A DNA stretch of 26,475 nt from Priapulus caudatus. Lineage: Eukaryota > Priapulida > Priapulimorpha > Priapulimorphida > Priapulidae. Below, one piece after another: positions 3,280-26,475 of this stretch. Position 1 is the first letter of the stretch, and every line of letters starts with the position of its first letter. The notes beneath the pieces were generated by a model that saw only the letters and a list, made by a program, of their open reading frames with translations, did not search any database and was not told the DNA's origin. The translations under genes were made by a program, and so were the position numbers. Location: contig NW_014578082.1 of NCBI RefSeq assembly GCF_000485595.1, positions 1 through 26,475 of the forward strand, read 5' to 3'.

Positions 3280-4915
3280 ATACGTATACGTACGTGTGCA
3301 TACCCGCACTAACGCACTCACGTACGTACACGCTAGCGCGCATACCCGCACCAACGCACTCACGTACGTACACGCTAGCGCGCATACCCGCACCAACGCA
3401 CTCACGTACGTACACGCTAGCGCGCATACCCGCACCAACGCACTCACGTGCGTACACGCTAGCGCGCATACCCGCACCAACGCACTCACGTACGTACACA
3501 CTAGCGCGCATACCCGCACCAACGCACTCACGTACGTACACGCTAGCGCGCATACCCGCACCAACGCACTCACGTACGTACACGCTAGCGCGCATACCCG
3601 CACCAACGCACTCACGTACGTACACGCTAGCCGCGCATACCCGATACCGGCACCAACGGCCACTCAGCGTACCGATACACGCTAGCGCGCCTACCGCACC
3701 AACGCACTCACAGTACGTAACCGTCTACCGCTAGCGCGCATAACTAGCAAGCATACACAGCCCCGCAATCGCCGCCACGCAACAGCACTCACGTACGTAG
3801 CACGCGCAACAAGCATACCCCGCAATGCGCCAAACGGCGCACTCACGCTAACGTACACGCGCGCGCATCCGCACCACAACGCCTCACGTACGTTAAACGC
3901 GCACGCGCATACCCGCCCAACAGCACTCACGTACGTACACGCGCGCGCATACCCGCACCAACACGCACTCACGTTACGGGACACGCTAGCGCGCATAACT
4001 AGCAGCAATCACGCTAGCGCGCATACCCGCACCAACGCACTCACGTACGTACACGCTAGCGGCGCATACACCGCGACCGCAACGCACTCAAGTACGTAAC
4101 CGCAGCTAGCTGCAGTAGCCGCCCGAACGCACTCAGCGTACCGTACACGCGCACGCATCAAAGAACGCGCACCAACGCACTCACGTACGTACACGCAGCG
4201 CGGCATACCCGCACCACGCACTGCACGTACGTACACGCGCGCTGCATGACCGCACCAACGCACTACGTACGTACACAGCGCGACGCATACCCCAGCCAAA
4301 CGGCACTCACGACGTACGGACTCGCGCGCATACCCGCACCCAACGCACTCACTGTACGTAACGCTGCGCGGCATCCCGACCAGCACTCACGTACGTACAC
4401 GCTAAGCGCGCAATACCCGCCCCAGACCTCCCGGTACTAACGGCTAGCGCGCATACCCGCACCAACGCGCCTCAGCGTACGTCCACGCTACGCCAATACT
4501 GAGCGAAAGCATACACGCGCACCGGCTACCCGCACCAACGCAGCGTCACGTGCGTAGCACGCTAGCGCGCATCAGACCCGCACCAAAGCACTCCACTACG
4601 TACACGCTAGCGCGGCTACCCGCGAACTAACGCCTCACGTCGACACGCTATGCGGCATACCGCACCAACGCAGCTCATCGTACGTACACGCTAGCGTCAT
4701 ACCCGCGACGCAACGCAGCTCCACGTGCGACACACGGCGCACGCAACCCGCACCAACGCACTCACGACGTACACGGCTAGCGCGGCATACAACCGCACAA
4801 CGCGACTCACGTGGCGACAAACCGCACGTGCATTACCCGCAGCCAACGGCACTCACGTACGACACGCTGCGCGCATATCCGCGACTCAATGCAGCTCACG
4901 TAGGTACAGGCATAT
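3280..4915. repeat. 42-bp minisatellite array
   Basis: The tandem unit contains GCTAGCGCGCATACCCGCAC followed by CAACGCACTCACGTACGTAC and AC. About eight copies at 3298-3630 are nearly perfect. From about 3640 to 4915 the same unit continues but is broken by frequent one-base insertions and deletions. Because 42 is a multiple of three, every frame stays open in the clean part and gives 14-residue peptide repeats on both strands; these are not genes. GCTAGC and ACGTACGT are small palindromes inside each unit. Confidence 0.95.
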
Positions 4916-8969: not shown

Positions 8970-10927
8970 CTAAACACTTGGTGTGCTGTCATTCAGCTGA
9001 GCATTCACATTTACTAAATAGTTATTTTTCAACATTTCAGCAGAAGTGCCAAATCGCCCAGTTGCCGGGTGTCGTTTTTTTGGCATTTTTAGTTTTGAAT
9101 ATCTGAGCTTTTTTGTTGGCTGAGATTCTGTCAACAACTCAGATTTTCTTTTCGACGGTAACTTTTCCTTAACTATAAGCCCGCTGCTTTTGTGAGCAGA
9201 TTGTTTTAATTTCAGGTACATCTGGTGGAGGCCAACTTCTACATCATTGAGCGTACTGTCATCTAGTACGTATGTTAGATTGTTTATTGACTTCAGCAGC
9301 TCCCTGCACTTGGGTCCTCGAGCACGTGGAGTATGGCTTTTTGTGGGTAGCTGCCTATATTCTGTAACGTTAGTAGTAGATTCGATTCCACCTGTAATAT
9401 CATTATCACACTGAATGATATTAATACTATCTTCATTACTGCTGTTCATTTTTTGCTTGGCACGGCACATATGAGCGCGTATGTCTGCCTTGGTTGGGAA
9501 AAAGGCACGATTGGTACGTGGTGGTAGCTCTCGTCCAGCAAACATGTTCTTGACGAACCAACATAAGTGCCGCTTCATCTCTAACACCGTACCGACTCCT
9601 TCTCTAACCATGTCGCAGAGGTAGTTTAGCACACGCTTGTCCATCACCAGTGAAACACCACTTCCCTGAAATCAAAAATTATATATCGCAACTGGTAACG
9701 TTTACAGTGTGATTCCATGGTATTTCCATTCTCTTTATCTACTACTTTGTCAGAGTCATCAGAGGTCTATAGATAGTTGTTTATGCGCCATTCCAGCAAA
9801 AAATCCGTTGTACGCGGTGTCGACTTTAATACCCCGTACAGACTACGAATTTGATATGGTATTAAACTAGCGCGCGCCAGGCCTGCGCTAAATATTTGCA
9901 GTGTGTACACGCTATCCCACTCCAAATACACGCTGGCCCGCTCCAAGTTGGCCCCGCAAATAAAGCAGGGCCAGGCCCGAGCTAACTTAGCCCGGGATAA
10001 GATAGCCCGCTTGTGTGTGTGCCAGTACACAACAAGCGGGCCAGACCAGGTGCAAAATTGCAATACGCATGCGCATAGCCTTATTTGGGTCACGTAATTG
10101 TGCGCTCGCTGTACCTCGCAAAAAAAGGTATATTTTTTAGCCTTACCTCTCCAACAGGATGATTCCTGTGATCACTCATATCCGGTAGGCACACATGCAG
10201 TTCTTTTCTGACGTTTTCTATGCACAATGTTGACAGTGCTTTTTTAATTGCCTTTGAGGATTTATCCCTGTAAGACTTGGTGTCTTTCTCAACCTGAAGT
10301 GTACAAATTTAATATACTGTTAAGATAAACAAAGCAATCAGGAGCAATGACAGGCATTCCAAATACCAGAATTTAACATGAAAAATATCCATGACATCAT
10401 GAATATAAAATACAACATAGGTGCTAAAACTAAATAATGATCATCTGCATGATAATTCAAGCAAAATGTAGCTGTCAATGTCACTATTTATTTCTATAAA
10501 CAAATCTTTTGATGGAAACCACTCTCCTGCAAAAGTGTGATAAATACCAAAATTGGCCAATTGCAATTATATAGCTGGAAAGGACACAACTATACCCTAA
10601 AACAAACTAGAAATGGCAGTTGTCGCCAACTACATGTATCCCCCGCGATCTAGTTTGGTCATGCTAGGTCAATTAGGGGCAAAGTTATAAAGCGGAAGGG
10701 AAAGTGTCTGCGGCGGCGGCGAGCGGCGGCTGAACAGACGTGAAACCATAGTATCCCCGTCAACTTTGTCGCGGGGGATACAATAACTTATTATAAACCC
10801 TTAAATAACTTACCTTGAACTGTGGGAATGTAATGATTTCATTGACTGTAATTTTTGCTGGGCAACCTAATTTTTTGGTGTCTTGAATCATTAAGTTGTT
10901 CCTTTGCCATACGTGGTCAGGGCCACC
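8970..10927 (-). CDS. CARF-like (ALS2CR8-type) protein, 3' three exons, partial
   Basis: Three minus-strand exons join in phase 0 with GT-AG borders: 10927-10814 (38 codons), 10293-10147 (49 codons) and 9665-8970 (231 codons plus TAG). The joined text carries the family signature in order: GCPAKITVNEIITFPQF in the first exon, a LPD...NHPVGE block in the second, then MDKRVLNYLCDMVREGVG, EMKRHLCWFVKN and PPRTNRAFFPTKADIRAHMC in the third. CARF in vertebrates is a calcium-responsive nuclear transcription factor, and related genes are expanded in some invertebrates. The C-terminal tail has a Lys/Arg-rich stretch (RKSELLTESQPTKKLRYSK) that could be a nuclear signal. Upstream exons were not found before the transposon, so the start is unknown. 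Function here is inferred only from the domain. It could be a host gene or a retained gene fragment. Confidence 0.75.
9770..10100. other. Intron insertion with GC-rich hairpin
   Basis: Inside the last intron of the CARF-like gene lies a locally GC-rich stretch with several inverted short motifs. The clearest is GCCCGCTTGT (10005-10014) paired with ACAAGCGGGC (10032-10041). It is probably a small mobile element, but no terminal repeats or target duplication could be defined. Confidence 0.35.
10635..10782. mobile_element. Short MITE-like element with 14-bp inverted ends
   Basis: TGTATCCCCCGCGA at 10635-10648 is the exact reverse complement of TCGCGGGGGATACA at 10769-10782. The 148-bp interior is GC-rich with GCGGCGGC repeats and has no coding capacity. 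The size and perfect inverted ends suit a non-autonomous DNA transposon. A target-site duplication is not evident. It sits in an intron of the CARF-like gene. Confidence 0.55.
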
Positions 10928-11905: not shown

Positions 11906-12323
11906 AGCCGGCTGCACGCAATAGGCGTCAGTATGCATGCGCGATACCGTTCGCATATATTTGGTAATTAATTAGACTAATCGTGCTTCAACAAACTGAA
12001 AATTCACAGAGATTATAGCTAAGACATGTATTTATATTCATCTAGATTTCTAGAAATGTAACTCAACTCGTTCGGAAGATATGATAGTTAGTACCCTTTC
12101 CTATCGCCCAGAGCCGTGCGTACATAGCCGGCTGCACGCAATAGGCGCCTATGCGCAATACCGCTCTCGTATATTTGGTAATTAATTAGACTAATCATGC
12201 TTCAACAAACTGAAAATTCACAGAGATTATAGCTAAGACATGTGTTTATATTCCTCTAGATTTCTAGAAATGTAACTCAACTCGTTCGTGAGATATGATA
12301 ATTAGTACCCTTTTTTATCACCC
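11906..12323. repeat. Tandem duplication of a 0.2 kb segment
   Basis: 11906-12110 and 12126-12323 are two copies in the same orientation, about 220 bp apart. Both begin AGCCGGCTGCACGCAATAGG and contain TTGGTAATTAATTAGACTAA, ACAAACTGAAAATTCACAGA and TCTAGATTTCTAGAAATGTA. Differences are mostly substitutions, unlike the indel noise at the left end of the window, so this looks like a real and moderately old duplication. No open frame runs through it. Confidence 0.9.
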
Positions 12324-13926
12324 ATATATTACGTATGAGCGCCGATCGCTTCCCCCTTTTCCATCCCATCATGCTTTGCGGTGGTGCGCCATCTGGTATA
12401 TTGTCTATAAAGTTATCACATTCATATATGTTTTCAGTTTGTATGCTTGTACATTTTTAATAGGGTCGAGAGTGCAGCACCTCTTTACTAAGTGGTTACC
12501 TAGTTGTATAAACTAGCATGAATAACTGAATCAGACAATCAAGGAAAAAACTCTAGAAGAATATTGATTGCAAGCCAAAAATCTATTTTTACGGAATAAA
12601 TAATTCAATTCAATATACGATAACAATGTTTCGTTACGTTTCGTAAGGTTTGTAGCGTTGAGCATATTTACCAATTTCATTTCCACAAATGTTGCTTGAA
12701 TATTGCATCTCCTTGATCCTTTTCACAGAGTGCGCATTCGCGGCGTTTGAATTTTATAATGCTAAACAAGGATCGACACAAAGTGACTGACTGTACATAT
12801 ATACTTTTATGCCATTCCACTGCCATAGCCAAGGCCACGTCCACCTTTTAGGTTTCCACCAACAGCTATATTAATTTAATCTCTACTGCACAGGAACTGC
12901 ACTATTACAAAACTAAAGTAGTAGAATAACAAGTAATAACAGATGTCGTTTATCAAACGGGTGTGACAATAAAAATATAACAGCATTCTCAGTTAACGCA
13001 TAACCTGCGTTGATATATAGCAGAGCTCTTCATTAAATTATCATCGAAACAATCTTTGCTAAAATATGTTCAAATTCTAGATTGAAATCTAACAACAACA
13101 TTCGTGAGAAACGTTATGACATTGCCCATCGCATTCAACAGCCTATGAGCAAGAGGCTCAACTGCCGTACCATTATTTGATTTTTTAAATTTAATAAAAC
13201 AACATCACCGAAAGCAAAGCAATCATCGAGGCTTTCTGCGAATAGGCATAACTCACCCGAAAACCAACAAATGTTGCTATTCCGTAAATCTACACGCCAT
13301 CACATTCCATCCAGGGTCTCAACCTAGTGACGACGACGGTGAATTTACACAGACAAATATGTTTATCTTCACACATGCAGAATGTACAGGATGTACAGTG
13401 AGTGCGTTTACATTCGGGCACGTAAAAAAGTGCCGACGTCATAGAAACACTAGGTGAATAGCGGACACGTTAGGGAGATGCCATTTCTGGAGCGACCCTT
13501 GCCCCCTCGAAACAATCTCACATCCGTGATCATATCACGCCTAGCAGGACCGACACAAGGATCCAAGAACTCGCCGAATTTTCACGGAAAGTAGTTGTAA
13601 TCGACCTGTATCGGGTTGCGCATGTAACAAGGGGTTGGGCAGCCGCTGAAGATTACACCATTCCCTTCACGAGGGTGAGAACCTATCAGTTGAACGTGGC
13701 ACGGCCCAGCCTGCACACAGGCACTTGGACCGTTTCAATAATAAAATGATGGTTAATAAATACAACTTGTCAGTAGCCTACTACTACAGTACCAGCAATA
13801 GTCTTAATGTTTGATTTGACCTAATAACTTCACTTGAACACCGTTAAATACACCGATGCAACACATAGCCCGCACGCCATTGTGCATGCACAGATACACA
13901 GTAGATAGGAGAAGGTAAGAAAGCCT
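12324..13926. other. Non-coding stretch left of the transposon
   Basis: Mostly AT-rich unique sequence with no recognised gene. A more GC-rich section at about 13470-13740 has only short open frames interrupted by stops and could be a degraded repeat. A minus-strand piece at about 12680-12760 reads like a short exon but lacks supporting homology. Confidence 0.5.
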
Positions 13927-13932
13927 TTTCAC

Positions 13933-14143
13933 AGAAATTCCAGACCGCTCCACTCTTGTCGATGCACTAGAGACGAAATAAACCTCCAAACGCCATGATA
14001 TTGGCATCTGTGTGTAGCTGAATGATCACTTGTTCGAAATATACGTCTTGCAACATGGTACCACAGACTTTACCCAGAATTATATGATAAATCCTGCTCA
14101 AATTTGCCGCAAATTTCCCATGAAGCCGATTTGTAAACCGGAC
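13933..14143. repeat. Left terminal inverted repeat (211 bp)
   Basis: Begins AGAAATTCCAGACCGCTCCA and ends CCGATTTGTAAACCGGAC. By eye every base is the reverse complement of 26019-26229. The 68-residue minus-strand open frame across it is found equally in the right repeat and is a by-product. Confidence 0.95.
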
Positions 14144-14414
14144 AAGTACATGAGCAATGGCGGCGCATTGCACTCTGGGAGGAGTTGCATCCGCCTGCCC
14201 AACTCCAAAACGAGCCTCGACGCCAACCCCAGGGTACCCGGATGCCTCGCCGCCGGCGCTGTCAAGGTATGCGTTGCTATGCGTTGCTATGCGTGTGTCT
14301 GTACAACAGAAACTTAGTATTTGCTTTGCGTATGAATGTTGCTATAGATTTTTGATTTATATTGGTGTATAATAGATTTACATGATATAAAACAGTCAGC
14401 TTTTTACCAGTGAA
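14144..14414 (+). promoter_or_regulatory. Leader region of the helicase gene
   Basis: The 271 bases between the left inverted repeat and the first helicase ATG must hold its promoter if the element is self-contained. It contains a GC-rich part (CAATGGCGGCGCATTGC, near 14155) and a short direct repeat of TATGCGTTGC at about 14269-14298. No TATA box at a sensible position is visible. Confidence 0.4.
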
Positions 14415-14909
14415 ATGTTCAAGTTGACAGAGTCACAGAAACGTGCAATTAGTTTGGTCAAAGACGGCCACAATCTTCTCGTTCTAGGACAAGCTGGTAT
14501 TTATTTATCTAAACCTATACTATAGGCTATAGTATGGCTATATAAAATTAATATATTACTATTACTAGGCTATAGGCTATACTACTACTAGTAATATATT
14601 CCCTGTTCATCATTCAGTGCAGTCAATGAATTTTTTTATAATCTCACTGTTACTAATACTAATAGCTATTAATAATAATAGTGATTGAACCACGTAACTC
14701 AACGCGATGTACACGCGATAGTTCCAAGAAATTGTTCTGGTAGGCCTACTGGTAGGCGTATAGCCCGGCCAGACTGTGCGACGGTTTGTCTATACAATGT
14801 ATTACAGGGTATTCTAACCCTAGCAATACCGTTTCTTGGAGCTAGTAGTCGTAATGATTGAGCATTAATTTCATTTGAACTATTTGTAAGGACAGTTTAA
14901 TTTTTAGAA

Positions 14910-14946
<37 letters not shown>

Positions 14947-17900
14947 TATCAGTGTTTAATACTAATGACGTAATGAACAGTTTTAACTTGCTTTTATACA
15001 GTCTTTTAACTATTAGTATTAGCATACACAGTGCACATTGTATACTCACTCATAGCCCGCGCAGGCTCCCCGGGGGGGTTAATCTCTATTTTTATTAGAA
15101 CATTACCCCATGTGCATTTTCACTAAAAATGATAGGCCCCCTAGTGCGAACTGCACATTGGAAAACCCGACCCCCTATTGCAGACACAATTTAAGAAAAC
15201 CACCCCCTATTGCTTACAGTGACACAATGAAAATATCCCACCCTCTATTGCATACACAATGATAGAGTCCTACCCGCGGTCCTACCCCCTATTGCAAGGT
15301 CTTGCAGACAAGTGGAGAGCAAAGAGTAGAGGGAATACTTGTGATCAACTCAAAGAAGACTACTTGCAACTCTTGTTGCTGTCAACAGAGAGTGTCAAAT
15401 CTCAAATCAAGAAGAACGGAAGGAAAAGAGAGAGATTATTTATCACATTATGAGAATTTATTTGTCACAGCTTCAAATACTCAACTGAGTTACATTTGGA
15501 CTTGAACGATCCCGAGAGCTTATTGCGGGATTAGCTGTATAAAGGGGGCCTATGTGCTCCCGCACGGGCCCGCTTTAGAAGTTGAAAAGCACCCCCCTAA
15601 CTCGCTAAATTTGGAACGCACATGGAGGCATAAAGCATATAGGGTAATAACGGCATATATATAGTGATCACCCCCCCCCGGGCCAGGCTCTACGCAGTGT
15701 AAAGTGAGAAGGTAACTTGTGGCTAACTCACTCAGAGCTATACACTGTTGATATATATTATTCATGACCATTATGACAAAATATTAAATTTTGTAGGTAC
15801 TGGAAAAACCTTCGTCCTGAAGAGAATTGCAGATGCACTGAAGAGCAATGAGAAATCTGTTAGTGTATTGAGCACAACAGGTAGGAACTAGTCTTTATTA
15901 GTTTTCACGTGATATTAACACTTGCTTATATATTAAACCGTTCCGCAATATTAAATGTTAAACTACTGCATTACAAAAAAGGGGATCCAGCTTTTTGAAA
16001 AAGGGGGTTCCAACTTGTTGTCCTGTTAAGGATACTCTCAGGCTTTTGACATGGTATTGCTTTATTGATGAGTAAACATTTATTGACCAAAGAAGCTAAT
16101 GAGTAACATGTTTAGCTTATGTATAGATGTATCACCATGCTCAAAAAAATAATAATTCCACTAAATTTCTTGCATATAATTATGATACAACACAAATTTT
16201 GAATTAAAAAAAATGTAAATTTGGATATTTCTCAATAACCACAAACAGTGTGAAAGTAAAACCTTTGCTAGATGTTAAGTACCCCATGCGCTAAAAAACG
16301 GCATCGAGAATTTTTTTAAATTTCATATTTATATATTAAATTGCTCAAATGTAATGTAGATTTTACGAAATTGAGAGAAATATTAACACAGACATGAGTG
16401 ATCTGCATGACATCACTAATTTATGTGTCAGAGGGCTTTACCCCGTTATGTTCCCGTGGGAACAGAGGTGGCCCATGGTGGCAGCTATCAAATAAAACTG
16501 TTAATGAAAAATCGATCAAATTTCGCAAAAAAGCCTGATAGTATCCTTAAATGATTTAATGTAAATGATACATATTCTCTTAACTTTGTTCTGAAATGGC
16601 CATGCATTAGCAAAAAGAGCAGAAAACCATCTATTTTAAGACGTTTAATGGTTGTGCGACTTAGATGAAATGTTTAGTTAAATCAATTGTGTTTTTTGGA
16701 TCTGTTAGTGTTGTTTGACACGAATTTCTAGTTTAAAGTTAAAAATTAATTTTTTTTAATTTTGGGACGAGTACAGATTACATTTTGGCGAGTTTGATTT
16801 ATTGACTCCCTCGCCCAGTCTGGCGAGTTATTTTTATCTTAAACTGTTATCACTGGAATGACTCTTACATATTCTTACTTTATTTCAGGGGTCTCAGCTA
16901 GTGCACTGTTAGACTACGGAGGGACCACGCTTCACAAGTGGTCGGGAATTAGAGATGGTCGACATGATGCCCAATACTTGGCGCACCTCATCGCTACTGA
17001 TGAGGCATACATGGACGCCAATCACAACATCAAGTCTGCAGATGCTGTGATCATCGACGAGGTGTCAATGCTCAGCCAGCTCACACTCGAGTCGTTTGAG
17101 ACCATCTGCAGGCTAACCAGGTCGTCTAATATTCGGTTTGGAGGCTTGCAAGTCATCATGGCCGGAGACTTCTTCCAGCTACCTCCAGTTCCGAACCCAC
17201 AATACGGAGATCACGGCCGCTACTGCTTCATGTCGCCCGTCTTCAGCAGTTTCCCACATACAATAGAGCTGGTCCAGGTACTTCGCCAGCAAGATGATAC
17301 CTTGATCAGCTGTATCAACCAGCTCGCTAGAGGCCAGTTGCTATCAGACACCTCGTTGTCTCTCCTAACAGAGGTATCTCGCCCTCTCCAACAATCACCG
17401 GACACCATTGTTCTTTTTGCTAGAAATTTTGAAGCAGAAGTCTTCAACGCTGAAAAGCTGGGCCAGCTCCATGGTGAACCTACAATTTCGACTGCAAAGG
17501 ACACTGGAGACTTGCGCACGTTGAGGAGGTCCAGAGTACCTAAATACGTCGCGTTAAAAGTCGGTGCACCTGTGGTTTTGACGGCCAATCTGGCAGACAC
17601 CTTGTTTAATGGCCTTCTGGGAAGAGTACATGCGATATCGTCTGCAGGGCCTCTAATAAAATTTGATATCAACGGCTGTGATGAGGCTATTCTCATCACA
17701 CCTCACCTATTCTCCATGTACTCTGCTACAGAACAGAAGGTCACTGCTACAAGGAAGCAACTGCCATTGCTTTTGGCATTTGGCATGACGATCCACAAGT
17801 GCCAGGGCATGACATTGCCATCTGTGGAGGTGCACTGCCAGAACATTTTTGCACCTGGCCAACTCGGAGTTGCCGTCGGTAGAGCCACGCACAGGGATGG

Positions 17901-19938
17901 TCTTCGCGTGGTTGGCTTCACATCAAACTGCGTGAAGGAACATCCCCAGGCTGTCATCGACTTTTACCAGCAACTAGTCGATGCCGACACTGAAGGTGAC
18001 TTGGGTTGCTGCCAGGTTTGCGACACCGGTGCACTCCCTCAACATGTCGAAGAAGACGGCGGCAGTGACTTCTCCTCGTTCTCTGAGGGGGAGATTCAGA
18101 GGATCGACGAGATGTTGTCGGCTGCGCCCCCGAGCGATATTGCGCCTGCAGAGCGTTCGGTCCTAGAGGTTTGTTCCCTGCAAGAAGGTATCCGTAACGT
18201 ACTGCCTGACTTGTGCCCACTCGCAGGTGCTGACATGCTTGCTGAGCTGTCCCAAGATCCAGTGACTGATATACAGCAGCAGATTGCTTCACTCGCCGTC
18301 AATCTGCTTCAGCCTGGCAATGAAAAGATGCAGCTTTTTCTACACCAAAACTGGATTGGGATAGGCAACATGCTTGCAGAGCAGTTGCCACAACTGACAC
18401 CCCAAAACTGGATTGGGATAGGCGACATGCTTGCAGAGGATTTGGCACAACTGACACCATTCACACAAGTCAGGTGTAGGGAACTAACGGCCTTCACTAC
18501 CAGCCTGCACAGTTTCTTCAACAGCGACATCTACAAGCAGAGGTGTGCTGCGTTGATGAGCTGTGTTGTCGACGCACTCGGTGACTACCAGTGGGTCTTC
18601 TGCCATGCCATCGTAGATGCTGTCGTTCGCAGCATTTTGGAGACTGCTGCTTCGCATGTTATTACTAAACAGCGAGAACAGATGGAGCATCGTCCCCTAA
18701 TGGACATCCGAGCAACCGACGAAGGCATGGGCAAAATACGTTACGTCGCTGGACGATGCATTGCAAAGTTGGCAAACCGGTACAGGAACAGTTTGCGTCA
18801 TCTTCTGTACAGCCAAGGTGTACACCAGCAGAAGATTTGCAAGAGCACTATAGCAAGGCTCAAACTCCTGGACCACCTCACTGCTTCCTATGCAGATCTC
18901 CAACAAAGCAGCCAAGTTCCAGCCACACTGCAGGAGACTGCAAGAAAGCAGAACATCCGGCAGTCATTGTTGAACATCAGCGATGACGCATTCCAGTTCT
19001 TTTTGCTCCTGGAGAAGCACCGAGGTCACTTGGAAACCCAGCGCCTCTTCGACCTGGAAAAGCAAGATATCATTCATGTGGTCGAAGCACAAATCAGGGA
19101 AACGCCTGACTTGCAGGAAGCATGGCAGCAGCTAGTCATGCCGTCATGTCAGCCAGGTGAGGATGCAACAGCTGTGTATCGGGAGCTTGTCCATTCGTTT
19201 CTATTCATAGCCAGCAATTACTTCAGGAAACGACTTATCCAGGCATTTGGACGAAAGAAAACCGAAGCCCACAGAAGACAAATTCACATTAAACAGCAGA
19301 AAATATTGGATAAAACTTCAAAATTGTCACCAGCGACCATTGCAGCAGACAAGTCCCGGGGCAAACAGCTGACTCACCTGCACCTGCAGAAAATGCTTCA
19401 TTCAAGCCCGAACTTCTTCTCCACGAGCTACACTAAGGACGAGCTGAAACCGTTCTTCCGGGCATACAGCATACCCTGGAGTACACGGGCATCAAAATCA
19501 AAATTGGCAGAAAATCTCTGGAGGAAAATCCTTGAAGTGGAAAGCATACCGCAGCCGTTATGCTTTGATACACCTGGATTGTCCGGCCCCACTGCAGTTG
19601 TCCAGCCACTGGCTGCAGATGAGGCCCAGCCTGGACCCTCAGGCCTCCAACAGCAAGTAAGTCTGCCTCGGCCAGGAACCTCCACCAAGCGTCAAAAATC
19701 GGTTGCTGGTTCGAAGTCTCATAAGAAGAAGCAAAAGACGACATACATCTGCCCTGTATGCAGCATAGATGTGGGAGATGGCCAGTGTGTGGGTTGTGAT
19801 CACTGTGAAGGGTGGCTACACCGAGCATGTGCAAACTTGCTAGATGAAGTCGCATGGAACAGTGTATCTTCAAGCACGGAGCCTTTGGAGTGCCCAGCTT
19901 GTATGAACCGTCGTCTAGCAGCATCTTCCATCGTGTGA
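14415..19938 (+). CDS. PIF1-family helicase with C-terminal PHD finger (transposon-encoded)
   Basis: Three exons, 14415-14496, 15797-15880 and 16889-19938, joined in phase 1 at both GT-AG introns, give 1071 residues ending TGA. PIF1 helicases are ATP-driven 5'-to-3' DNA unwinders. Visible motifs: Walker A GQAGTGKT at residues 25-32, split by intron 1; STTGVSAS (motif Ia); Walker B VIIDEVSML with D112-E113; GDFFQLPP at 148-155; GMTIHKCQGMTL at about 354-365; and VAVGRATHRDGL at about 383-394. Residues 400-1000 are family-unknown, with a tandem 19-residue duplication (NWIGIG...AQLTP) and a SAP-like stretch near 890-925. A PHD finger follows at 1010-1060: C1010, C1013, C1025, C1028, H1033, C1036, C1057, C1060. 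The first ATG is preferred because it lies just before the Walker A exon. No Rep/HUH domain is present, so it is not a Helitron protein. The stop codon touches the 93-bp array. Confidence 0.9.
14550..14600. repeat. AT-rich inverted repeat in helicase intron 1
   Basis: AATATATTACTA (14550-14561) pairs exactly with TAGTAATATATT (14589-14600). The surrounding text also repeats CTATAGGCTAT. Probably local sequence drift or part of a small element. Confidence 0.5.
14808..14840 (+). repeat. 33-bp direct repeat, left copy
   Basis: Starts GGTATTCTAACCCTAG and ends AATACCGTTTCTTGGA. It is identical to 25652-25684 in the same orientation. The first 23 bases form an imperfect hairpin, with GGTATT pairing with AATACC. 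It lies in intron 1 of the helicase. Confidence 0.85.
14912..14944. repeat. (AT)n microsatellite
   Basis: About 30 bases of pure AT dinucleotides in intron 1 of the helicase. Confidence 0.95.
15062..15690. mobile_element. Possible nested insertion in helicase intron 1
   Basis: The left edge CCCCGGGGGGGTTAATCTCTAT (from about 15068) and the complement of the right edge near 15660-15682 (GGGGGGTGATCACTAT) are similar inverted ends. Inside are four diverged copies of CCCCCTATTGC at about 15171, 15203, 15241 and 15285, spaced 32-44 bases apart. Low-complexity ends make the boundary uncertain, and open frames inside are short. Confidence 0.35.
16026..16550. mobile_element. 517-bp MITE with TTAA target duplication in helicase intron 2
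   Basis: TTAA at 16026-16029 is followed by GGATACTCTCAGGCTTTT. The right end reads AAAAGCCTGATAGTATCC and is followed by TTAA at 16547-16550. The 18-bp inverted ends differ at one position. TTAA duplications are made by the piggyBac and Kolobok superfamilies; the GG start argues against typical piggyBac ends. There is no coding capacity, so it is non-autonomous. It inserted into the transposon after, or during, the transposon's own spread. Confidence 0.8.
18346..18459 (+). repeat. In-frame 57-bp tandem duplication inside the helicase
   Basis: 18346-18402 and 18403-18459 both encode QNWIGIGxMLAExLxQLTP, 19 residues each. The nucleotide match is very high (ACTGGATTGGGATAGGC in both), so the duplication is recent relative to the gene. 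It lies between the helicase core and the C-terminal region. Confidence 0.9.
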
Positions 19939-21515
19939 TTGCATCACAACAACGTCGTTTGCTATCAGTGAGCTGGCAGTGATTGCATCACGGCGACATC
20001 TCTGCTCATCGTCTGAAGTGAAGCTACGACACTGCATCACGGCGACATCGTTTGCTATCAGTGAGCTGGCACTGATTGCATCACAGCGACATCTCTGCTC
20101 ATCGTCTGAAGTGAAGCTACGACACTGCATCACGGCGACATCGTTTGCTATCAGTGAGCTGGCACTGATTGCATCACAGCGACATCTCTGCTCATCGTCT
20201 GAAGTGATGCTACGACACTGCATCACGGCGACATCGTTTGCTATCAGTGAGCTGGCACTGATTGCATCACAGCGACATCTCTGCGTCAATCGTCTGAAGT
20301 AAGAAGCTTATGACCCGTGCATACGCGCCGAACCACTGACATGATTTGACATCAGTGACCTGGCGCTAAATTGCCGATCACAGCGATCATCTGCGCTTAT
20401 TCGTCTGAAGCTGAAGGCTGATCGACACTGCATCACGGCGACATGACATGATGACATCAGTGACCTGGCGCTCAAATTGGCGCATCACAGCCGACATCTT
20501 GTCTCATCGTCTGAAGTTGAAGCTAGACACGTGCATCACGGGACAAGTCGTTGCTCTGAGATACAAGCGTGACGGCTAGCACTGATTAGCATACACAGCG
20601 AACATTCTTCTGCATCAATTCGTCTGAAGTGAAGCTATGACCCTGCATCTACGGTCAAGCGACAAACTAGACATGATGACCATCAGAGATGACCTGCGCC
20701 GCTTAAAAGCATCACGGGCGACATCTCTGCTCATTGTCCTGAAGCTGAAGCCCTACGACACTGCCATGCACGGCGACATCGTTTTGCTGATTCAGTGACC
20801 TGGCGCTAAATGCATCACGGCGACATCTCTGCTCATCGTCTGAAGTGATGCTACGACACTGCATCACGGCGACATCGTTTGCTATCAGTGAGCTGGCGCT
20901 AAATGCATCACAGCGACATCTCTGCTCATCGTCTGAAGTGAAGCTACGACACTGCATCACGGCGACATCGTTTGCTATCAGTGAGCTGGCACTGATTGCA
21001 TCACAGCGACATCTCTGCTCATCGTCTGAAGTGATGCTACGACACTGCATCACGGCGACATCGTTTGCTATCAGTGAGCTGGCGCTAAATGCATCACAGC
21101 GACATCTCTGCTCATCGTCTGAAGTGAAGCTACGACACTGCATCACGGCGACACTGACATGATGACATCAGTGACCTGGCGCTAAATGCATCACAGCGAC
21201 ATCTCTGCTCATCGTCTGAAGCGAAGCTATGATACTGCATCACGGCGACATCGTTTGCTATCAGTGAGCTGGCACTGATTGCATCACAGCGACATCTCTG
21301 CTCATCGTCTGAAGCGAAGCTATGACACTGCATCACGGCGACACTGACATGATGACATCAGTGACCTGGCACTGATTGCATCACGGCGACATCTCTGCTC
21401 ATCGTCTGAAGTAACGTACGGAACTGCATCACAGCGACACTGACATCTGTGAGCTGGCACTGCATCACAAACGGTGACATCTATGATCATCGTCTGAACT
21501 GCATCACGGCGACAA
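19936..21515. repeat. 93-bp tandem array between convergent stop codons
   Basis: ACATCGTTTGCTATCAGTGA recurs at 20045, 20138 and 20231, a 93-bp period. Each unit is made of two related halves that both end in GCATCAC(G/A)GCGACATC. About 17 units fit. Copies near both edges are clean, while about 20290-20830 is broken by frequent small indels. A multiple-of-three period with few stops keeps frames open on both strands; these are not genes. The helicase stop (19936-19938) and the transposase stop (21504-21506) both lie at the array edges, so the repeat supplies the 3' untranslated regions of both transcripts. Confidence 0.95.
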
Positions 21516-24500
21516 CATCTCAGTGCTTTTCCGTTTTTTCGGATTTATGGCGTTGTGCACGTGAAATGAATAAGGCACAGCCGCTACACCTGTGTTGCAG
21601 CGGTTTGTATTTATTGTGTCTGCTGTGAGTATGATGGTGTTCATTCCGTACATGAATTGCTTGTAATTTGGGTTGTCGTTCGCACCATGTGAAGTAGCTC
21701 TTTGCTGGCAAAAAATGTTTTCCACCGAATCACTATTGATTCGGGAAGGAGTGATACTGGTTCCAGGATGGGATTTTTGTTTTTGCTGTATAATGGAAGC
21801 AAAACCCAACACGGTTGACTTCATGTCAAACCGTGTCTCTTGGGACATGAGCTTTCTTCGGCACAGGCCTGGAGTGTTTTGAGGGTTGCCTGTGATCTCG
21901 TTTTCCCATGATACAAACCACTCCAATGCTTTTGCATTGCTTGACAGACGGTCATCGGCTGCAGAGGTTATTGGCCGAGAGTCTGTGAAGTTGCTCACGA
22001 ACACACTGGTCACCTCCAACAGTTGAATGGCGGCATTGAGTGTATCTCCATTTGGCCCTTCGGCTTTCTGGTAAGCCTAGTTAAAAAAATAATGCTATAA
22101 TTACACAATACGAATTAAATTGAACTAATGTGTTGGGCATTAGTGCAAAGGTGCACACTCTGTTACAGAAATGCAGGCACCATCTAGTGCAGCACAAGTT
22201 TACCTTGAATAAGTACAGCATTTCTTTATCCAGAACGTCTTCTGCCAGCCTATTTCTCATCTTCTGGCCACTGTTGGGTCAGAGGTGTTCATCCGTCAGG
22301 ACGTGATGAATCCGTGAAACCTCGCTAGCGTTGGCCGACTGGTCCCACTGGTAAGCCTTGACCCACATGGCCCATGTTATGTAGCCTGCATTGTGGTACA
22401 GCAGTCGGGTGCTTGATTTGCCAAATCCACTTTTGAGGATGTTGTTCCGTATCTTTTTCAAAAGATGCTGAATCAAAAGGAAAAGCACACAATGCGTTCA
22501 GTGTCATGTATTTTAAAGCATGATATCAGTTGCTCATGATTGGCATTTCTTTGAGAAATGTTTCATGCAAAACCTGTGATGTGTATGTTTCAGTAAAATA
22601 CCTTCGGATCCATCATCATTACAAGTGGTCGATATGGTAGGCAAGAGTTGCGCGTTACGAACAACGCACGTACCGCAGCAGACTCTGACCCATCGAAATG
22701 CGACTTGATGAACGATCGGTTATGGACAGCACCGTCAAAGCATGCGTAGTTTACCTGGAAAACACATAACAAGTACGTTGTCAGAAAATGTCACCACTAG
22801 TAATTAATTCATTCTAAATTTTTCTAGATAAATGACACTGTCATCATCGTTTTGTGATGTGCAACTGATCAGTGACTTTTCGCGTCTTCGTATTATTGTT
22901 GCACTACAACTTACGCATTGCAATGCGTATACCACGTAACTTCCTAAAACCTTGAATGACACCCAGCTTGTTGTTTATGCCCTTCCTATTCCATATAGTG
23001 ATGTAATTGGATAATGATAAATCGGCATTCCTGGTACAAGATGTTTGTGCTATAGTTGTTGTACTGTTTGTTTTGTACTTTTTATTGCAAAATATGTACT
23101 CACGTGGAAGCCCCACAAAATCAGCTCTTGCACTGCTTTCCAGAACAACATGTAGATGTCTGGCGCTGTTGCTTCAGTTGTGGGCACATGCATGAACGGA
23201 AAGCGAAACCCACTATCGCCTTGGAACAGGAAGAGCAACACATGTGTTGCAAGTTGTGCTGTAGCATTGTCTGCGAAATTGTGAATTGAAATCAGTATAA
23301 ACTATATTTAGCATTGAACAGTTAACATAATTATTAATTTATTTAATATTATGCTGATATGTATAGCCATACATGCATGCTCACACTTGAGAATACTTAC
23401 TTTCTTTCAGCACTTGCATAGCAGTGCATGTGTCTCCCATGTCCATGACTCCAAGTATTTTTACTTTACCCTCACAGTAGATGATCTGAAGATCGCTTTG
23501 AATTGACATTTCGTCAAACACGATGCCTCCAGTCATGCCGTGAGGGGGGACTTTCTTAAGCTTCGCCTCTTCATACATCCAACGGAAGATCTTCTTGTTG
23601 ATGCCAGGCTTTTGGTGGACCGAATTTTTGTAATACTGAAGAAGGCGTCCACTCGGCAGCGTTACTAGCATCCCGAGTGATGATATCTTCTTGTACGTCT
23701 TGGGACTGCTCGCCCACAGTGTAAGACAAGCTTTCACTATCCTGTGTACGATAGCATGGTTAGGACCTAGCATTTTACTTTACAGCATAAACATAATCAT
23801 TGCGTGCAATGAGCCTGAGCACTACAACACGTGTTGTTTACTGAAATAAGACAATTGAATTTTTGTGGAAATATATACAAATTGAAATTCTTATTACAGT
23901 TGTGCGTTTTTCACTTACTCCGGCTTCCACCGTCTACCCCTTGGTGGTCTTCCCAGGTTCTGCTCTTGGCTCAGGAGCTGGTCCCGCATCAACGGATGAT
24001 CGCTAATTTGTGGCAAATAGTTTGCAACAATGGCAGCGATATCAGCATCATCTTCATTGATGAGGCTCCAGTCGTCATCCAACGCCGGTGGAGCTGAGGA
24101 GTCAACTGGAGGAGGCACTGTTGACTCACGTGATGATGTCTTCAACCGGCGCATGTGTTGACGACATGGTTTGCAGATTTGCGAACGTGCCGTCAACAGC
24201 CAAGAGCACTGGCGACTTCGAACTCGTTGCGATGGAAACTCGTCCTCCGCTGCCTTGAAACTTTCCACTCCTGAAGTAGTGCAGGCATTGTTTCCATCAA
24301 CGATACCACCTCTGCACATATGCATGTTGCTTACCCTGTCAAGGAGGGCCTCTACACTCGTACGAGAGAATCTACCTTGAACTGGGTGCAACATGCTTGC
24401 CTCATCACTACACACATTGATGTTAGCCACGTGTACTTGCCATTTGCCATCATGGGAAATGTCTAAGGTTTTCTCCACTACCTTTTTGTCGATGGTGGCA

Positions 24501-25774
24501 ATACAGGTGGACATATTGAGGTGTAGTTCACTGATGTCAGCTAAAACCCATCGAGCTGGTCTTGAAGATGATGCAATGTCTTGAAGACTCATTGTGTTAT
24601 TTATGTTTTCCTTGAAGGAAATGCCACGGTATATTCTAAAATGCTTTGCTGCCTTTCTCATTGTGGATATGGTTGTTGCAGGGAATTGTGATCTCAGCAA
24701 TTTTCCAAATAAGCAATTTGAAATAGGTTTGCCTTCTAAATTAGTGAAACTGTTTGTATAACAATTGTACACGTCCTCTGCTATTATAGAGCCGTAGGGT
24801 GCAACCACCAACTCCTTTTCGAGCCTATAAACGAAGAAAATTAAATATTAGTTATAAACAGACGTTTTTGGGAGTTCAATCATTTTAAGGCACCCTCTGT
24901 ACTGCTATTATTATATGTTACATTGGCGTTAATTATCATTTATTATTATTTAACATTACACATTTTTTTTAGTGATTGTATTATCGCGTATATTTACATT
25001 AAACTGTTCTGCACTGAAGTCCATTTCGTATGACTATATAGCCCGTTACGCCGTTGGGTTGTTACCATTTGTTAGTTTTGAAATGTTTTTAAATGTAATG
25101 TCAAGAATACTTGTTTGCCGGTGAGTTACAATTTTCACCATCTGGTTCTTGGTTTAGTGCTTAATACATATTAAATTTACATTAGGAGTCTATCAATATT
25201 GATAGACTCCTGATTACATTTATAGGCCTATATCATGTGTTTGAATTATATTTCATTTGCATTAATTTGCATTATTAATTTTACATACAATATATATTAC
25301 AAATACATTTACAAGAGCAATTACAATTACAAATACAAATACAAGAGCGAGGAAAGTTCCTGGAGTTGAATTTCTTAATATTGAGATAAGCATACCACAT
25401 AAAGATCGCCATTCTGGTAAATTATTATCCCAGCTAAATGAATATTTGAAAATTTTAACATGAATCTAATGCCTAATGCGTAATGCCACTACTAATGGTA
25501 ATATTCATTTTTGTTCTCACTGTTGTGTTTAATTTTACATCTAGTACTTCTAGTTATAGTTTTAAAAACATGAAATCCGTGAGATGAGATCCGCTACATC
25601 TAACACGACCATGCTGTGTGACTAACGTCAATATACGCCTACGTAAGAATAGGTATTCTAACCCTAGCAATACCGTTTCTTGGACTGGAGCTAACCTAGC
25701 CTATATCATGTATAAATGAGCATCACTTACCATGCCGAGGCAGCTCTTTCCATATGGTTCTTTGGCTTTGCCAT
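21504..25774 (-). CDS. P-element/THAP9-type transposase with RFX-like DNA-binding domain; one in-frame stop
   Basis: Seven GT-AG exons in matching phase: 25774-25731, 24824-23919, 23741-23401, 23270-23104, 22754-22602, 22467-22204 and 22076-21504, 815 codons. Residues about 20-88 match the RFX winged helix: EDVYNCY, PISNCLFGKLLRSQFP and YRGISFKEN. A C-x10-C-x2-C knuckle follows at 221-235. The P-element transposase core then appears in order: RRW..E..KACLTLW..SPKTY, LPSGRLLQYYKN, GGIVFDEMSI (D393), GDSGFRFPFMHVPTTEA, CFDGAVHNRSFI (D493), MDP-HLLKKIRNN (D535), and RINSDSVENIFCQQRA (E744). These are the expected acidic catalytic positions of the RNase H-like fold. It should cut and join the element ends in the nucleus. 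TGA at 22279-22281 (codon 600) breaks an otherwise conserved block, so this copy may be inactive. Confidence 0.88.
25184..25211. repeat. Perfect 28-bp palindrome
   Basis: The half-site AGGAGTCTATCAAT (25184-25197) is followed directly by its reverse complement ATTGATAGACTCCT. It has no spacer and lies in intron 1 of the transposase gene. It could extrude as a cruciform or be a dimeric protein-binding site; no family was recognised. Confidence 0.9.
25652..25684 (+). repeat. 33-bp direct repeat, right copy
   Basis: Identical in sequence and orientation to 14808-14840. It lies in intron 1 of the transposase, 47 bases inside the 5' splice site. The pair is 10.8 kb apart, subterminal within the transposon. 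Confidence 0.85.
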
Positions 25775-26018
25775 GGTTGGGGTTGGGGAGAGGCCCAGAA
25801 TACCGTGTTTCAAATTTTTAATTGTAATTAAACACTTTAGAGACTTTTGTTCGATACTTTGGTCGCTTTGATATAATATTTCTTCTTTCGCCTCAATGTT
25901 TTCGCGTTGTCAAGCGCATTTCGCGGCTATCGTATTTCGCGCAAAGTGACGTCACACGGGCGACTATCGTGATTGGTCAAAGGATATAATAGAGCAGTTA
26001 GGGATTTCCGGCATGTTG
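25775..26018 (-). promoter_or_regulatory. Transposase promoter region
   Basis: Lies between the transposase start and the right inverted repeat. Reading toward the gene it has a CCAAT box (ATTGG on plus, 25972-25976), a perfect TGACGTCA CRE/ATF-type site (25947-25954), and the E2F-like palindrome TTTCGCGCAAA (25935-25945). Such spacing is typical of TATA-less, cell-cycle-linked animal promoters. Use by the transposase is inferred from position. Confidence 0.6.
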
Positions 26019-26229
26019 GTCCGGTTTACAAATCGGCTTCATGGGAAATTTGCGGCAAATTTGAGCAGGATTTATCATATAATTCTGGGTAAAGTCTGTG
26101 GTACCATGTTGCAAGACGTATATTTCGAACAAGTGATCATTCAGCTACACACAGATGCCAATATCATGGCGTTTGGAGGTTTATTTCGTCTCTAGTGCAT
26201 CGACAAGAGTGGAGCGGTCTGGAATTTCT
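26019..26229. repeat. Right terminal inverted repeat (211 bp)
   Basis: Exact reverse complement, by eye, of 13933-14143. It begins GTCCGGTTTACAAATCGG and ends GGAATTTCT. The next two bases (TG) differ from the left side by one extra base. Confidence 0.95.
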
Positions 26230-26236
26230 TGTTTCA

Positions 26237-26475
26237 TTTGTCTCGTTTTTAAAATTGCATTTCCTTGCCTGCAACTTGCAGCGGTTTACAAAATCGTCGA
26301 CGGTTTCGTCCGTATTCTGTTTGAATTGCTGGAGCCACAGACGCGCTACCCTGAAATTATCAGGGGGGTCAAGCTGCTCCTCGAATCTTCCCCACACGGT
26401 CTCGGGGTCCTCTGCGCCCTCGGTGAGGCCCCATGAATTATATCGTCTTATCCCTTCTTGGCCAGCTAATAGCAG
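26237..26475 (-). mobile_element. Ty3/Gypsy-like gag fragment, cut by window edge
   Basis: One open minus-strand frame continues past the window end. Its translation, with SWGLTE, VWGRFEEQLDPPDNFRVARL, then LQQFKQ, ETVDDFVNRCKLQARKCNF, is the conserved capsid-like region of gag proteins from Gypsy-like retrotransposons. The frame ends at the transposon boundary. The sequence on the far side of the transposon (left of 13927) does not continue gag, so the two flanks do not simply rejoin. Confidence 0.75.

Follow-up and report, generated by a model that had tools for sequence, protein, structure and literature searches.

A candidate two-gene P-superfamily transposon of Priapulus caudatus with an RFX-headed transposase, a PIF1-PHD helicase gene and long inverted ends

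Two convergent genes between inverted repeats

The window, that is, the whole stretch of 26,475 nucleotides of Priapulus caudatus DNA that was analysed, contains a perfect inverted repeat with arms of 211 nt (13933-14143 and 26019-26229, 100% complementary), which are spaced 11,875 nt apart and delimit an element of 12,297 bp. The similarity stops sharply at the inner edges of the arms, and given the length of the match, chance is no concern. Between the arms lie two genes, a helicase gene of three exons on the plus strand and a transposase gene of seven exons on the minus strand (25774 down to 21504), which are convergent, each starting 244-271 nt inside the arms and reading inward. A preliminary description of this DNA had reported long identical inverted ends enclosing a transposase gene and a separate, convergent PIF1-PHD helicase gene; this observation was confirmed as a whole, and its element coordinates proved correct to 1-2 nt. 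The model of helicase exon 1 was drawn by eye, with homology and GT/AG sites as guides. The features are as follows.

13933..14143, plus strand: left terminal inverted repeat of 211 nt; 26019-26229, reverse-complemented, has the same sequence
14415..14496, plus strand: helicase exon 1, with the start codon and the first half of Walker A, supported by an alignment
15797..15880, plus strand: helicase exon 2, with the second half of Walker A
16889..19938, plus strand: helicase exon 3, with the remaining PIF1 domain, the helical C-terminal region, the PHD-like end and the stop codon
19940..21498, no strand assigned: 93-bp minisatellite that occupies the interval from one stop codon to the other
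21504..22076, minus strand: transposase exon 7, with the NSDxxEN motif, the catalytic E at 21722-21720 and the stop codon
22204..22467, minus strand: transposase exon 6, with an in-frame stop at 22281-22279
22602..22754, minus strand: transposase exon 5, with the second catalytic D at 22736-22734
23104..23270, minus strand: transposase exon 4, from the gene model
23401..23741, minus strand: transposase exon 3, with FDEMSIQ and the first catalytic D at 23515-23513
23919..24824, minus strand: transposase exon 2, with most of the RFX DNA-binding domain
25731..25774, minus strand: transposase exon 1, with the start codon and the start of the RFX domain
26019..26229, minus strand: right terminal inverted repeat, 211 nt

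The possibility that the arms are two solo MITEs was rejected, because their own terminal inverted repeats are no longer than 6 nt. No full RFX X-box was found in the whole window; half-sites are scattered, with none in the arms. By eye, helicase intron 1 holds a C-rich stretch at about 15050-15700 that is bounded by G/C runs and in which 'CCCCCTATTGC' recurs; it is possibly a small nested element. The first transposase intron contains a perfect 28-nt palindrome (25184-25211).

Products of the two genes and their relatives

The minus-strand product has a P-type RNase H (DDE) catalytic core in which the catalytic residues D393, D493 and E744 are all present, and its NSDxxEN motif aligns with the NQDxxEH motif of the P transposase. 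The earlier assignment to the P superfamily is upheld by this core. The further label 'THAP9-type' is not, because at its N-terminus the protein has an RFX winged helix as DNA-binding domain, and the N-terminal THAP domain that marks the P element and THAP9 in the narrow sense was not found. The GTP-binding insertion domain PF21788, present in 8 of 24 family members, is absent from the match list of the window protein. The nearest relatives of the transposase are likewise from Priapulus caudatus. By eye, the second catalytic D is kept in 21 of the 24 aligned rows; the window protein retains it, and the Priapulus caudatus proteins P0121, P0122 and P0123, its nearest annotated transposases, have lost it. 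The in-frame stop in exon 6 falls at residue 600, where the Priapulus model P0121 reads through. Since the transposase frame is interrupted and the helicase frame is open, the examined copy is probably non-autonomous for transposase. A scan for the transposase family gave 78 pattern matches in genome contigs and 42 in viral contigs, none of which was confirmed.

The plus-strand gene encodes 1071 aa in an open frame. Its product, a PIF1 helicase by fold and motifs, is stand-alone; its C-terminal region is conserved and its end is PHD-like. The PHD is weak in the window protein (Pfam E 0.066 and 0.094, both below the cut-off; PDB PHD match, E 0.0044) but clear in its relatives, with PF00628 in nine of the 12 rows of A1. 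The Pfam scans showed no Rep/HUH domain in the two gene products (for the helicase, among the best 25 of 31 Pfam rows), in the 27 non-exon open reading frames of at least 55 aa in and around the element, or in the six that overlap exons, in agreement with the absence of Rep noted in the preliminary description. Matches below the cut-off (best E 1.1e-4) came from a few open reading frames that lie in the minisatellite or run antisense to the helicase; none of these matches was to a Rep or HUH family.

Phylogenetically, the helicase groups with bivalve and metagenome PIF1 proteins (Mytilus, Saccostrea and others) in one clade with an SH-aLRT value of 99. P0001-P0003 and P0005-P0008 are about 30% identical to it over 88-99% of the length, and BLAST among the helicase relatives showed that its C-terminal region is common to 18 proteins at E < 1e-14. 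P0026 from Branchiostoma lanceolatum is also a stand-alone PIF1, with a weak match in the C-terminal region (E 6e-5) and a long internal repeat. A protein search with helicase residues 420-1071, by a method that needs shared exact words, returned nothing at E <= 0.001 among the 7993 proteins scored, and the PDB matches listed, which were taken up by the helicase domain, gave no fold for the C-terminal region. In the viral contig collection, the full helicase profile matched only about residues 1-433 in the 80 loci kept of 475, which is generic PIF1, and a scan for the C-terminal motif gave seven pattern matches in viral contigs and 40 in genome contigs, with none confirmed. A viral origin of the helicase was rejected, as the 50 BFVD matches listed had TM values of at most 0.30 over the query. 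Both protein families, helicase (P0002, P0017 and P0020) and transposase (P0128 and P0139), are present in Mytilus edulis, which is a weak co-occurrence; transposases are also known from Ptychodera and Dreissena.

Integrity of the probable unit and its target site

Exact inverted repeats of at least 13 nt inside the element were limited to AT runs, the 28-nt palindrome and two 13-nt pairs in the helicase introns, and candidate inverted ends around either gene alone were within the range of shuffled controls. The stretch from stop codon to stop codon is taken up by one minisatellite, whose last unit (21499-21516) runs into the final codons of the transposase, and the GC3 values of the two genes are similar (0.54 and 0.51). 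The lack of an inner inverted repeat, the single minisatellite between the stops and the similar GC3 together favour a single unit over a nested pair, and the preliminary description, which had preferred one element to a nested helicase, meets no sign of nesting at this one copy. Scans of the genome-contig and viral-contig collections with either gene recovered no second copy, and no empty site was seen. On these sequence features of the one copy examined, the two genes likely form a single unit. A separate helicase-bearing element, Helitron-like or other, lying within a P-type transposon, or the reverse, or a chance association of the two, is improbable in our judgement, even though PIF1 helicases are best known from Helitrons and the pair was seen in one copy.

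Clean target duplications, listed among the checks in the preliminary description, were not seen at the examined copy. No 8-bp duplication was found at the 25 offsets tried; the best match at the arm edge was 5 of 8 bases, which composition shuffles equalled at one or more of 25 offsets in 0.47 of trials. A 6-of-8 match at one offset falls within the arms, whose own start is nearly palindromic, and is due to this. The element has the terminal inverted repeats of the P superfamily, which at 211 nt of perfect match are far longer than known P ends, and lacks its 8-bp duplication.

The minus strand of the right flank (26164-26475) matches Retrotrans_gag weakly (E 0.018; 15.7 bits against a cut-off of 24.1). 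The match breaks off at 26233, within 4 nt of the right arm, in the manner of a gag gene cut by the element. The open reading frame across the left junction matched no Pfam family, and the left flank is unlike the other half of the gag match. The missing duplication and the unmatched flanks could be explained by recombination between copies, by deletion at insertion or by an assembly join. They also lend something to the view that the inverted ends do not belong to one transposition unit and that the halves of two copies were joined in assembly or by recombination: a duplication is missing, and the right arm meets a below-cut-off match with no Pfam counterpart in the left-junction frame. However, the two arms do not differ at a single position (100% identity) and their inner edges are sharp, as in one element, and recombination between copies of the same family would swap flanks yet leave a two-gene element. 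We regard this view as very improbable. Elsewhere in the flanks, an open reading frame with an ALS2CR8/CARF domain was found on the minus strand at 8970-9671 (PF15299, E 4e-11), a degenerating 42-bp tandem array of about 38 copies at 3298-4908, adjoining long AC and CT runs, and 1.9 repeats of a 214-bp unit with 90% matches at 11906-12324. Position 577 of the window is a single N.

Proposed role of the helicase and comparison with known systems

Cut-and-paste elements gain copies largely through host copying-back into the excision gap, which is harder for a larger element. We propose, with a probability of roughly 0.6 that covers the whole loosely, that the locus is one class II transposon of 12.3 kb, which belongs to the P superfamily, has two genes and uses its helicase to drive repair synthesis. 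Its transposase would bind and pair the ends through the RFX domain and would cut and paste the element in the manner of the P element. The helicase would act as a 5'-to-3' PIF1-type motor, a polarity taken from the known family, and would promote processive D-loop synthesis of the polymerase-delta type from the sister chromatid into the excision gap, so that the 12-kb element would be copied back whole, escaping loss or internal deletion. The PHD-like end of the helicase may serve as a tether to chromatin. Because its transposase frame has a stop codon, the examined copy would now depend on transposase from another copy.

In one report, the gap after P{wa} excision is 14 kb long, has 3' overhangs of 17 nt and is filled by SDSA from the sister; the synthesis often aborts, and the fly host PIF1 is required for efficient repair without POL32 (PMC8951532). 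Larger PIF/Pong/Harbinger elements, according to another, show less excision and reinsertion (PMC10288884). That a P-type element of 12 kb has a PIF1 of its own fits the idea of a helicase that secures long repair synthesis. Given a single unit, the odds that the helicase is a repair helicase are about even.

The helicase might instead be a passenger: a P-type element would have captured a PIF1-PHD gene that contributes nothing to its movement. To our knowledge, P elements of flies and zebrafish lack a helicase gene and are still mobile. Single-gene elements are described in PMC7776569, and the helicase clade is mostly bivalve whereas the nearest transposases are priapulid, hence any fixed pairing of the two is putative. 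Yet the helicase has stayed open over 1071 codons despite the stop in the transposase of the same copy, and it belongs to a multi-copy, multi-phylum clade, resembling a gene of mobile elements and not a captured host PIF1. We consider a passenger unlikely, though less so than nesting or joined halves. More tentatively than the repair-synthesis reading of this locus, the element may belong to a P-superfamily lineage that occurs in several animal phyla and pairs an RFX-headed transposase with a PIF1-PHD repair helicase of the element itself. By driving long synthesis in gap repair, this helicase would rebuild the large donor and make excision effectively replicative, so that a cut-and-paste element would bring along a motor for break-induced replication.

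An element that carries a PIF1 of its own would offer a natural way of testing whether the size and copy number of transposons are limited by repair synthesis as well as by transposase. For the P superfamily, a transposase with an RFX winged helix would be a new route of end recognition, and the RFX head would be a possible transposon link to a cellular transcription-factor domain.

Helitrons and Helentrons carry a PIF1-family helicase fused to a Rep/HUH nuclease and are not known to have long inverted ends. The present element shares with them the PIF1 family, but no Rep was found here and the helicase is nearer to cellular PIF1; the Helitron reading was rejected on these two grounds. The cut-and-paste DDE elements KolobokH and Kolobok-1_CCri encode a RecQ helicase, which in Kolobok-1_CCri lies on the complementary strand, as stated in PMC9587614; a DDE element can therefore carry a helicase, though a RecQ. 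The present element resembles the Kolobok lineages in joining DDE cut-and-paste transposition with a helicase and differs in superfamily and helicase, its transposase being of the P type and its helicase a PIF1. The bivalve and metagenome PIF1-PHD proteins have the same C-terminal region as the window helicase and are known from proteins alone. The fly P element is 2.9 kb long with 31-bp ends and 8-bp target-site duplications, and the zebrafish P-like element has 13-bp ends and 8-bp duplications, as given in PMC7776569. Here the ends are 211 bp, the element is 12.3 kb with a helicase as second gene and no target-site duplication was found, and the transposase has an RFX N-terminus in place of the THAP of the Drosophila P element, THAP9 and the zebrafish element. 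The preliminary description knew of no family of such make-up, and in the open-licence literature searched no P-type element with a PIF1 or with an RFX transposase was found described. Taken together, the sequence features indicate that the element is real and unusual, combining a P-type catalytic core, an RFX head, its own PIF1-PHD helicase and long identical ends.
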